This document shows positions 3,411 through 6,504 of a stretch of DNA of 8,114 bases, one piece after another. Positions within the stretch are counted from its first letter, which is position 1. Every line of letters begins with the position of its first letter. The translations under genes were made by a program, and so were the position numbers. Source of the DNA: a bacterium (GTDB lineage Bacteria > JALSQH01); NCBI GenBank assembly GCA_026985515.1, contig JALSQH010000205.1, positions 1 through 8,114 on the forward strand, written 5' to 3'. The notes under the pieces are model-generated. The model had not been told where the DNA came from, ran no database searches, and was given only the letters and a program-made list of their open reading frames with translations.

Positions 3411-3554
3411 ATAAAGAAGATTCTCTATGGCATTGCCAATTATGATTTACTGAAGAGGGATAATTACTATTTTGGGGATAAAACTCATTTTATTCCAGAA
3501 CTGGAGGAGCTTGGCAGTCGTTATCTCTTCTTTCTCCGTCCCTGCAGGTTTGTT
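3411..3554 (+). pseudogene. 5' remnant of an AAA-ATPase-like (PF09820-type) gene
   Basis: Frame 3414 onward reads KKILYGIANYDLLKRDNYYF, then GDKTHFIPELEELGSRYLFF, then LRPCRF. This is the conserved N-terminus of the AAA-ATPase-like/PD-(D/E)XK proteins, whose family pattern is roughly KxPYGIxxFxxIxxxNYYYVDKTxFIxxLE...RYxFFLRPRRFGKS. The match breaks at the GKS of the nucleotide-binding motif: after RPCRF the frame reads VHFPPFF and stops with TGA at 3597. The usual start ATG appears as ATA (3411-3413), no ribosome site is present, and VDKT reads GDKT. The remaining hundreds of codons are missing from this window. The break coincides with the start of repeat copy 1, whose first ~15 bp still fit the gene. 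It is therefore a dead fragment cut off by the repeat region. These genes are typically numerous and mobile-like within one genome. Confidence 0.8.
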
Positions 3555-3665
3555 CATTTCCCCCCCTTTTTCGACCTTCTGTCCCTCCGTTTAATGTGAC
3601 TCCGCGGCAGTGAGTTCATTTGCATAAATCACTTTCACAGCCGACCCGATGGGGGGCTCCGCAAA
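3540..3665 (+). repeat. ~125-bp repeat, copy 1
   Basis: The unit begins CCCTGCAGGTTTG, has a pyrimidine-rich stretch, the core GACCTTCTGTCCC (3573-3585), GTGACTCCGCGGCAG, and ends ACAGCCGACCCGATGGGGGGC...CGCAAA. It is aligned over its full length with copy 2 at 3766-3890, roughly 85% identical by eye, with a first part shared by copy 3 at 4485. It is visibly richer in G+C than the flanking genes. No long ORF with coding character runs through it. It joins directly to the truncated AAA-ATPase-like gene. Confidence 0.85.
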
Positions 3666-3744
3666 AGGGATGTTTTCCTCTGCGGGCATTCCACGATTGC
3701 TCCGCCTTTACCCCATCGTGTCTGTCTCCGTCACAAACCACTCC

Positions 3745-3757
3745 GGGACAGAAGGTC
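3745..3757 (-). repeat. inverted copy of the repeat core
   Basis: GGGACAGAAGGTC is the exact reverse complement of the core GACCTTCTGTCCC found at 3573-3585, 3798-3810 and 4517-4529. It lies between copies 1 and 2. With the core of copy 2 it could form a 13-bp hairpin with a 40-nt loop; pairing with copy 1 is also possible. A second inverted pair, CGATGGGG (3647-3654) and CCCCATCG (3711-3718), lies in the same interval, so the spacer is structured rather than random. Confidence 0.75.
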
Positions 3758-3765
3758 TCCACCCG

Positions 3766-3890
3766 CCCTGAAGGTTTATTCACTTTCCCCCTTTTCCGAC
3801 CTTCTGTCCCTCCGTTAAGTGTGACTCCGTGGCAGTAGCTTCACTTGAATAACCCACTTTCACAGCCGACCCAATGGGGGGCTCCGCAAA
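3766..3890 (+). repeat. ~125-bp repeat, copy 2
   Basis: This is the second nearly full copy: CCCTGAAGGTTTATTCAC at the left, core GACCTTCTGTCCC at 3798-3810, GTGACTCCGTGGCAG, and the well-kept right end CACTTTCACAGCCGACCC...GGCTCCGCAAA. It sits 226 bp from copy 1 in the same orientation and ends about 75 bp before the antitoxin start. The right end is better conserved between copies 1 and 2 than the middle. Confidence 0.85.
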
Positions 3891-3965
3891 GCGGTGGATA
3901 AAGAGCAACGAGAATTAGTAAGATTTTTGTTAAGCTGGTAAAATTACAGTGGAAGGAGGTATGAG

Positions 3966-4484: not shown

Positions 4485-4536
4485 CCCTGCAGGTTTGTTC
4501 ATTTCCTCCCCTTTCCGACCTTCTGTCCCTCCGTTT
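4485..4536 (+). repeat. ~125-bp repeat, truncated copy 3
   Basis: CCCTGCAGGTTTGTTCATTTCC followed by the core GACCTTCTGTCCC (4517-4529) and CTCCGTTT matches the first ~52 bp of copy 1 almost exactly. After this the homology stops, with no GTGACTCCG or GGCTCCGCAAA end. It has the same orientation as copies 1 and 2, and with copy 2 it brackets the toxin-antitoxin genes. Confidence 0.85.
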
Positions 4537-4565
4537 TTACTCTTGCAGATATAACTCCAGGGAAT

Positions 4566-4694
4566 ATGGCTCCCATCGTGATTGAACCAGCATTTATCCC
4601 GCTATCTATCTGGTATTTAAGTATTTTTATTGACTTGTGGGTATTCTGGTGCTACACTTTAGATAGAAGAAGCAAGAAGGGAGGGTTGAAATGA
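4566..4694 (+). CDS. possible 42-aa membrane peptide overlapping the lipoprotein leader
   Basis: An open frame from the ATG at 4566 encodes a hydrophobic peptide. It begins MAPIVIEPAFIPLSIWYLSI, continues through FIDLWVFWCY and ends in the basic tail TLDRRSKKGGLK, which looks like a membrane span followed by a positive cytoplasmic end. Its TGA (4692-4694) overlaps the ATG of the next short frame (4691) as ATGA. Against it: the ribosome site is weak (CAGGGAAT), the frame is open upstream into the repeat, and the strong promoter at 4630-4658 lies inside it, so the main transcript would not carry it. It may be chance or the tail of a lost gene. Confidence 0.25.
   Translation: MAPIVIEPAFIPLSIWYLSIFIDLWVFWCYTLDRRSKKGGLK
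4630..4658 (+). promoter_or_regulatory. sigma70-type promoter for the leader/lipoprotein gene
   Basis: TTGACT (4630-4635) and TACACT (4653-4658) are separated by exactly 17 nt, with transcription expected near 4665. The leader of about 26 nt contains the AAGGGAGGG ribosome site (4677-4685) placed 5 nt before the ATG at 4691. This shows that the transcript is built to begin translation at 4691, upstream of the CATT repeat. Confidence 0.7.
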
Positions 4695-4753
4695 AAAGCT
4701 TTAAATTTCAGACACTTATCTCCTCATTCATTCATTCATTCATTCATTGGTAA
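4691..4753 (+). CDS. 20-codon leader frame running into the CATT repeat
   Basis: An ATG with a near-perfect AAGGGAGGG site 5 nt upstream opens a frame reading MKSFKFQTLISSFIHSFIHW, stopped by TAA at 4751-4753 directly after the CATT repeat. The frame is +1 relative to the lipoprotein frame. With seven CATT units (or four) it would instead continue as ...SFIHSLVNLQGSERVMVRF and into the lipoprotein. It is therefore either the out-of-phase 5' end of the lipoprotein gene or a short coupled leader peptide. Because promoter, leader length and ribosome site all point to this ATG, I think it is translated. In the six-unit state the downstream gene would depend on re-initiation 24 nt later at 4777. 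Confidence 0.6.
   Translation: MKSFKFQTLISSFIHSFIHW
4725..4748 (+). repeat. (CATT)6 tetranucleotide tandem repeat, candidate phase-variation switch
   Basis: Six perfect CATT units lie inside the 5' reading frame that starts at 4691, and 28 nt before the ATG at 4777. Because the unit length is not a multiple of three, each gain or loss by slipped-strand mispairing changes the frame. Six units give a stop at 4751. Seven or four units join the 4691 start to the lipoprotein frame. Five units give a stop in the third frame soon after the repeat. No other tetranucleotide array is seen in the window. Confidence 0.9.
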
Positions 4754-4776
4754 ATCTTCAGGGTAGCGAGAGGGTT

Positions 4777-6504
4777 ATGGTGAGGTTCCGATATATATCT
4801 TCTCTTACGATTGTGTTATCACTTTTGATTTTGCTTCCTGCTATCTTTCCATCCTGTAAGGGTGAGTCTACCGATAATGGTTCATCCAATCAAACTACCT
4901 TTTCTCCTCTTTTCCACGCTCTCACCTTTGGAGGGTGGCACAGGGTTAATCTTGAGGGCAGTTTCAATGATGGTTTTGCCCTGTATGGATGCAGAAAACT
5001 GGATGTCAAAGATACTCGTGTTGGTTCGGTGGATTTTGAAGGAGGATTGAGTTTTGATTATGATGGGAGTGTTGGGGGGATGGGAGAGATTAAGATAGAG
5101 GGAAAGAGTTTTATATCTGGGGATTTGACCTATTCTCCAGAGGGAACCTACAGTGTGGGGGGAGATGTTGATATTGAGGGGGTTGAGTATTCCTATGGAA
5201 TCAGTGAGTGCCCCTGGTGGAGTTACGGTGGAGAGGTGAGCGGTGGTGGGGGTGGATATCCATTGTATCTTACTGTTTCTTCTTCGGATGAAGTGACTCT
5301 TCCTGCAGGAGAGTATCATTTTAAGAAGCTTGTGGTAAAGGGAGGATTTTCGGTTGGATATGATGAGATATTTCAGGGGTATGGTAATCGTGTATATGTG
5401 GATGAGATGTATGTGGAGGGTGGGAAGGTGGATCTTGGGCTTGGAGTGGTGATAGCGAAGAGGTATGTGGAGAATGGAGGTGAGTTTCGTGGGAGGTTGT
5501 ATGGTGAGAAGGTCAGTGTGGTGGGAGGCAGAGTGATAGGTAAGGTTGTGGGTGAGGATGTATATGTTGGGGATAGTGACATTTACTGGAATGGTGAGAT
5601 GATATGTAAGAGTAAAGATAAGGTGTGTAAGGTGCTAACAGCAATTTACTCCCGTGATTACTGGGAAAAAATTATTGAAGAATTTGAAAGTGTGAGTGAG
5701 GAAAGAAGCATTTTAGAGGGCACAGTTGTGAAAAATAATCTGTTTGTTAAGCGTTATGCATATCTCAGCCCTCTTTCCATGGGATATTATGTAAATTCCA
5801 GAATGGGCAAAAAGAAATTGGAAAACATTTTAGAAGTTCTTGTCAGACAGGGATATTCTATGGGAGGATATGGCGTTGAAGATTATCGCCAGCCTGATGA
5901 ATATTATCTCTCTACTTTCACTGCCTTGAATATTTATTCACATGACCCTGATGAGGCACCAGGTAATTTGTGGAGGTTATTTAGATTATTCTATGGTTCC
6001 GGAATTGAGGTTGTTTACTATGGAGTGGTTACATCTCCAGTTTATATTTACTCGCTCGGGGAACTGGTGAAGGAGAGAAAACAGGAAGGTTGTAGTTATC
6101 CAGATGGTATTACCAGTGACACTTTTCAGTATGGGTATGATGATAGATTTTATAATCCCTGTGAAGATGTTTTTTACCGGGAGGGATGGGGTGCCTGGAT
6201 TGGGATTATGCATCTGTTTTTTGATATAAGAAAGGATCTAACAGATGATATTAAGGAGAAGTTTAAGGAGGAAGAGGGAAAATATGGTGTCCTTTCACCG
6301 ATCCTGTATGATTTTCATTTTTCAGATAGTGACGATCTTCTGGGAGTTATTTTTCCACGAAAGGTCACAGAGGACTGGATAGAAGCACATGAAATTTCAT
6401 TTTATTTTCCACTCTTAAAAGACCTTGCAAAAATCAAAGGGTTTGAGAATGCTCATTTTGGTGGGGAAGGGGAGATTAAGTTGACTCTTTCTTCCTCTTA
6501 TTGA
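4777..6504 (+). CDS. large surface or periplasmic lipoprotein, candidate phase-variable
   Basis: From the ATG at 4777 the product has 575 residues. Residues 1-26 are a signal peptide (basic MVRFRY, then a Leu/Ile/Val core), and PAIFPSC places a lipoprotein Cys at 27, though Phe at -3 and Pro at -2 make a loose lipobox. Residues ~45-275 are Gly/Val/Asp/Tyr-rich with many short strands. The LPAGEYHFKKLVVKGG...YVDEMYVEGG pattern suggests a right-handed beta-helix, or a fold like the AGTYxFxxLxVxGG domains of pilus-associated proteins. Residues ~275-575 are mixed and Tyr-rich, with Cys pairs (for example ICKSKDKVCK), and match nothing I know. The first half is strikingly G-rich on the coding strand and changes character near 5636. 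GTG at 4780 has better Shine-Dalgarno spacing (GAGAGGG, 4768-4774). The real start may be 4691 in another repeat state, giving 601-605 residues. Function is unknown. Confidence 0.85.
   Translation: MVRFRYISSLTIVLSLLILLPAIFPSCKGESTDNGSSNQTTFSPLFHALTFGGWHRVNLEGSFNDGFALYGCRKLDVKDTRVGSVDFEGGLSFDYDGSVGGMGEIKIEGKSFISGDLTYSPEGTYSVGGDVDIEGVEYSYGISECPWWSYGGEVSGGGGGYPLYLTVSSSDEVTLPAGEYHFKKLVVKGGFSVGYDEIFQGYGNRVYVDEMYVEGGKVDLGLGVVIAKRYVENGGEFRGRLYGEKVSVVGGRVIGKVVGEDVYVGDSDIYWNGEMICKSKDKVCKVLTAIYSRDYWEKIIEEFESVSEERSILEGTVVKNNLFVKRYAYLSPLSMGYYVNSRMGKKKLENILEVLVRQGYSMGGYGVEDYRQPDEYYLSTFTALNIYSHDPDEAPGNLWRLFRLFYGSGIEVVYYGVVTSPVYIYSLGELVKERKQEGCSYPDGITSDTFQYGYDDRFYNPCEDVFYREGWGAWIGIMHLFFDIRKDLTDDIKEKFKEEEGKYGVLSPILYDFHFSDSDDLLGVIFPRKVTEDWIEAHEISFYFPLLKDLAKIKGFENAHFGGEGEIKLTLSSSY

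Follow-up and report, generated by a model that had tools for sequence, protein, structure and literature searches.

The CATT tract of the DNA analysed here, a stretch of 8,114 nucleotides (the window; contig C205 of the 268-contig genome G000), probably represents a slipped-strand contingency switch and would be one member of a multi-locus family gating secretion, a reading to which we assign a probability of roughly 0.8. Ten loci that are alike in layout, differ in their repeat units and include copies differing by whole units strongly support the frame switch proposed in a preliminary description of the window. Its designation as an on/off switch proved too strong for the window gene itself, which possesses a lipoprotein signal of its own and a usable GTG at position 4780.

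Architecture of the CATT locus

The leader region of the window, located on the forward strand, starts with a sigma-70-like promoter (TTGACT-17-TACACT, 4630–4658), followed by a strong Shine-Dalgarno (SD) sequence (AAGGGAGGG, 4677–4685), which forms a duplex of −11.8 kcal/mol with the anti-SD and is spaced 5 nt from an ATG at 4691. In the six-unit state this ATG opens a leader ORF (4691–4753) that encodes MKSFKFQTLISSFIHSFIHW, belongs to the conserved MK..KFQ start cassette and is terminated in the same frame by a TAA at 4751–4753. Within the leader, the tetranucleotide tract TCATTCATTCATTCATTCATTCATT displays a perfect period of 4 over 25 nt (4724–4748), the six CATT units comprising positions 4725–4748. 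Re-reading of the sequence confirmed all of these elements as previously described (promoter, ATG, six CATT units and TAA). The downstream lipoprotein ORF, with its stop codon at 6502–6504, lies in the −1 frame relative to the ATG at 4691. Addition of one unit (seven in total) gives rise to a single ORF of 605 amino acids starting at 4691 and removal of two units (four in total) to one of 601, so that the frame arithmetic bears out the earlier statement of a lipoprotein frame offset by one step and fused by seven or four units; the remaining unit numbers of the window yield peptides of 16–27 residues. Four consecutive CATT units occur at a single site of the 2.36 Mb genome, which is the window tract.

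The lipoprotein-like ORF (4777–6504, forward strand) displays a signal ending in LILLPAIFPSC. Its candidate start is a GTG at 4780, preceded by an internal SD sequence, GAGAGGG, at a spacing of 5 nt (4768–4782 including the start); the ATG at 4777 is situated too near to this SD. With −6.3 kcal/mol, the interaction at the GTG is much weaker than the −11.8 kcal/mol at 4691. Behind the tract the window continues with SLVNLQGSERVMV and then with the complete lipoprotein signal RFRYISSLTIVLSLLILLPAIFPSC. The post-tract residues SLVNLQGSERV lack the immediate hydrophobic core found at the other loci, the core following about 20 residues further on. Both the lipoprotein signal and the GTG start are present in every repeat phase. 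The leader ends at 4753 with six units, 26 nt before the GTG, and at about 4766 in present coordinates with five units, about 13 nt before it. Since it stops upstream of the GTG in both cases, reinitiation at 4780 is possible. The protein gave no significant match in Pfam, NCBIfam, PHROG or PDB, relatives were absent from wider genome-contig and plasmid collections, and an AlphaFold prediction from single-sequence input reached a pLDDT of 36.

A lipoprotein paralog on contig C13 of the same genome is 37–39% identical over the N-terminal ~286 residues. The stretch upstream of the promoter (4536–4629, forward strand) is near-identical to its C13 counterpart, within an alignment spanning 4530–4710 at 92% DNA identity. 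The C13 leader contains no tract; its TGA overlaps the ATG of the lipoprotein gene, which has an independent strong SD. This layout indicates that the cassette can be converted to a plain leader and keeps a passive role of the window tract viable. With its own lipoprotein signal and its weaker GTG start, the window gene is an atypical member of the family. Because this signal and the GTG are usable in every phase and the C13 paralog is tract-free, the six-unit state may be 'reduced' or 'unfused' rather than 'off'. Most likely, the switch alternates between a fused precursor with strong initiation (seven or four units) and one that is started independently and more weakly.

A family of tetranucleotide tracts behind related start cassettes

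The cassette, RBS-ATGAAAA..TTAAATTTCAA followed by a tetranucleotide tract, was found at eight loci, seven in G000 and one in G001, a genome of another genus of the same family. Two further loci of G000, on contigs C110 and C96, share the layout but have another leader, bringing the tract loci to ten. DNA around the start at 4691 matches contigs C207, C211, C168, C65 and C106, in each of which an RBS-ATG leader leads at once into a tetranucleotide tract. These tracts consist of CATT units plus two CAGT in C207, of CTTC units in C211, C106 and C65, and of CACT units in C168. In C110 an (AACC)4 tract directly follows RBS and ATG in a leader reading MKLN..., and the signal-peptide core behind it lies in a different frame; C96, 69% identical to C110 in a protein search, repeats this layout with about six ACCT units. 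Over all ten loci there are four unit types (CATT, CTTC, CACT and AACC/TACC), the period is invariably 4 and the tract begins 9–33 nt past the leader ATG. Some tracts are short (10 nt in C65, 9 nt in G001), that of C207 is interrupted, and that of C11 is also shorter or interrupted. Promoter-like hexamer pairs upstream of the other leaders show on average 9.6 of 12 matches, versus 8.0 in random windows.

A leader profile built from sequence only, using seven loci, recovered two members outside the build set, both with CATT units: C11 (E = 5e-8), located upstream of a separately found lipoprotein homolog, and G001:C23 (record JALTID010000023.1; E = 2.5e-5). In the 145 genomes only one further match has E ≤ 0.001 (7e-4); it is a tract-free, in-frame signal peptide of the ordinary kind. 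Neither the sub-threshold profile matches nor the match in G104 contain a tract; genomes searched beyond G001 are related to G000 at the domain level only. Matches to the leader pattern among wider genome contigs, in Xenorhabdus and Methylococcus, were in-frame chance matches, a third being G001's own record, and two in viral contigs were likewise due to chance.

That the window tract is more than a chance occurrence is indicated by a background sample of this genome: 754,511 non-N bases, taken outside the contigs fetched for the leader, contained one period-4 tract of at least 16 nt, namely the (AACC)4 of C110, itself a leader locus. With the fetched contigs included (835,797 bases), all such tracts lie at leader loci. 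Three other sampled tetranucleotide tracts are 13 nt long and situated within ordinary open frames, and periods of 5, 7 and 8 yielded nothing above threshold in the 836 kb searched.

Frames, signal peptides and selection downstream of the tracts

At nine of the ten loci a hydrophobic core lies directly 3' of the tract but never in the frame of the leader, so that a change in unit number is needed to join both. These cores, mostly with a plausible cleavage site, read LIILLFLIVGSTSGNSA, LALFLLFNPLLNWDLHAG, IIFQLFLVGPALLFLTTNSYA, VILIFFSIGTVPVIAES, HIFGYFFLIISFLLLSDLPLEAHP and VIFFLVFSGPIYAH. After the appropriate unit step the charged n-region, MK..KFQ or MKLN, runs into the core, and the maximum KD11 reaches 2.4–3.4, whereas the other phases do not exceed 1.9. 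In the sense of a signal-sequence SSR, a segment of the signal peptide is tract-encoded at nine loci and, loosely, in the window. The joined ORFs comprise 601/605 residues in the window, 704/708 in C207, 769/773 in C110 and 784/788 in C96; those of C168 and C65 are only short because of further breaks or stops. In the C110 and C96 ORFs (769 and 784 codons when joined) no ATG, GTG or TTG occurs until 172–178 nt after the tract, where the signal peptide has already ended, and only the leader ATG, after a unit change, would therefore give an exported protein.

Every one of the ten loci is OFF as assembled, with six in one of the wrong frames and four in the other; given a one-in-three probability of ON at each locus, the chance of finding none ON would be (2/3)^10 = 0.017. 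ON alleles presumably exist at the ten loci. The unit-number differences that could be compared are those between paralogs: C211 and C106 share an identical 33-nt leader and 60 nt downstream, yet the tract measures 31 nt in C211 and 19 nt in C106, a gap of exactly three units; for C110 and C96, whose flanks are otherwise near-identical, the gap is two units.

The C110 and C96 ORFs are under purifying selection, with a dN/dS of 0.47 for the whole and of less than 0.45 for every segment, and thus have not been dead for long. Between C110 (L122) and C96 (L204), dS climbs from 0.05 next to the tract to more than 1 about 330 codons downstream, which suggests that the 5' cassettes have been homogenised by recombination or gene conversion between paralogs.

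Among the downstream products, the mature part of C207 comprises DUF7305/Bactofilin-like and subtilase (S8) domains and the ORF following C11 an S8 domain; a candidate cysteine-protease-like stretch, recognised by eye, is common to C168, C96 and C110. Frame breaks are observed in the mature coding regions of C168 (L095, 7556–10066), C207 (L094, near 9107) and C11 (L099, near 8234). They may mark OFF copies that are decaying, switches at a second level or errors of the assembly, and the further breaks in C168 imply that some family members may be decaying. G001:C144 (L215, 1–521), a homolog of C207 with 52% identity, has lost leader and signal peptide, and an SD abuts its mature region. At the C-terminus, a Gly-rich stretch is followed by CSETEPSD.. 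in C96 (L204) and G001:C23 (L093) and by CSMGNL.. in C168 (L095); in C168 and G001:C23 a hydrophobic segment and a basic tail come next, and C96 runs off its contig. These ends look like a candidate sorting signal.

Proposed mechanism and alternative explanations

In the proposed mechanism, the start cassette would provide promoter, strong SD, ATG and a short, positively charged n-region (MK..KFQ), with the tetranucleotide tract next; the signal-peptide hydrophobic core and a secreted or surface protein would follow, in a different frame as assembled. Gain or loss of units at replication would shift the frame, presumably by slippage in living cells. In one of the three unit-number classes, n-region, tract residues and core would combine to a full signal peptide, so that the protein is made and exported, presumably to the surface; in the other two, translation would end within tens of codons, and expression would differ accordingly. 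Each unit (CATT, CTTC, CACT, AACC/TACC) is stop-free and specifies one and the same short peptide whichever of the three frames is read, so that the tract can be tolerated inside a signal peptide. In the window, seven or four units would produce the fused lipoprotein precursor, and with six or five units a lower amount of lipoprotein may come from the GTG at 4780 by reinitiation. More tentatively, recombination may have spread and homogenised a modular start cassette ahead of different secreted proteins, in an uncultured lineage that is possibly free-living, resulting in a genome-wide, mostly-OFF phase-variable secretome with a repeat unit interchangeable between loci.

The alternative with most weight, possible but doubtful, concerns the window gene, where the ORF at 4691 could be a short regulatory or coupled leader, the lipoprotein always being made from the GTG at 4780 and the CATT tract representing a passive remnant of the start cassette. 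The SD at a spacing of 5 nt from this GTG, the complete lipoprotein signal with which the downstream protein opens, and the nearest paralog C13, tract-free with its TGA overlapping the lipoprotein ATG and a strong SD, are all in line with such an arrangement. Nevertheless, the window tract is perfect and among the longest, unlike a decaying remnant, and the SD at 4691 is far stronger than that at 4780; moreover, at most of the other loci a usable start is missing between tract and core, hence the tract matters there. That the family is decaying, with copies permanently off and the tracts being products of neutral slippage, is unlikely. It would account for the ten OFF loci, the extra breaks in C168, the downstream coding breaks in C207 and C11, and the G001:C144 homolog without leader and signal peptide. 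It conflicts with C110 and C96, intact over more than 760 codons at a dN/dS of 0.47, and with the confinement of equal-period, different-unit tracts to this one position in the sampled genome; Neisseria autB, moreover, looks alike, being OFF in most strains, yet works when in phase (PMC5118866).

Programmed ribosomal frameshifting within the tract, joining leader and downstream ORF at constant DNA length, would reconcile ten out-of-frame loci with selection on the ORFs tested. It was rejected as highly improbable, given that both wrong frames are occupied among the ten loci, so a single shift direction cannot serve all; in addition, none of the four unit sequences provides a typical slippery heptamer, and copies differ by whole units. 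Least probable of all is that repeat lengths or indels were mis-called in a fragmented metagenome-assembled genome: although there are 268 contigs, several members lie at contig ends and the G001 contig has a coverage of 1.5, the tracts do not exceed 31 nt and are thus below usual read length, two independently assembled genomes show the layout, at ten loci in all, and the adjacent genes are intact.

Comparison with known contingency loci

Judged by sequence, the family would work like AutA/AutB, Opa and the Haemophilus influenzae loci and has the structural characteristics of contingency loci. Among the closest parallels, AutA/AutB of Neisseria meningitidis and Haemophilus carry an AAGC tetranucleotide tract in signal-sequence DNA; autB has 2–10 units, is OFF in most strains and shows extra disruptions in some copies (PMC5118866). 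Shared features are the tract just past the start codon in signal-sequence DNA, small unit numbers and a secreted product, and the uniform OFF state of the ten loci echoes autB. AutA/AutB, however, are autotransporters with one unit type and with proven length variation and expression in pathogens and commensals, whereas here several different secreted proteins follow a homologous start cassette with different units, the known variation being that between paralogs. Neisseria Opa (P.II) genes contain CTCTT repeats in signal-peptide DNA (PMC4534519, PMC3899988) and likewise form a dispersed multi-copy envelope family, each copy switched by a repeat coding for part of the signal peptide; in contrast, their unit is a pentanucleotide identical in all copies, and the proteins are unrelated. 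Homology to AutA/AutB or Opa proteins was not found, the window protein having no Pfam match and its relatives carrying DUF7305, Bactofilin-like and S8 domains.

Haemophilus influenzae harbours 12–14 tetranucleotide loci per genome, which also lie just downstream of start codons and use several unit types, with mostly envelope functions (PMC2651432). Unlike the present lineage, it is a host-adapted gammaproteobacterium with strain-level proof. Its tetranucleotide loci are not known to have a single homologous start cassette in common. Repeat-driven variation in an uncultured lineage is also seen in a hypervariable gene of Gracilibacterium BD1-5, but there in-frame 9-mer repeats alter the protein (PMC6851277) and do not switch its frame.

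The mechanism itself is known. What is new is the setting in an isolated, uncultured lineage and, in addition, a homologous start cassette whose units are interchangeable. Four units at one position in one family argue for selection on frame switching itself rather than on a given sequence. A 2025 review regarded it as a major open question why genomes rich in phase-variable loci seem confined to pathogens, and whether this reflects database bias (PMC11868660). With at least nine tetranucleotide loci in one genome of an uncultured lineage, near the number in H. influenzae, this question becomes testable outside the usual hosts.

Neighbouring elements in the window

A dispersed repeat of about 225 bp with an internal inverted repeat is found at 3541–3940 and 4485–4535 and stands in tandem on C13. 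The latter stretch is a third, partial copy on the forward strand, immediately upstream of the promoter region, and the repeat directly precedes the promoter both in the window and in C13. Ten more copies or fragments lie on nine other G000 contigs; none was detected in G001, and Rfam gave no match. A remnant at 3424–3550 looks like the beginning of a PF09820 AAA-ATPase-like gene and is cut where the 225-bp repeat begins; a long copy of this gene is located on C13 (L008:4805-5458). Between 3966 and 4404, a small acidic ORF and a ParE-family toxin (PF05016) constitute a toxin-antitoxin-like pair.
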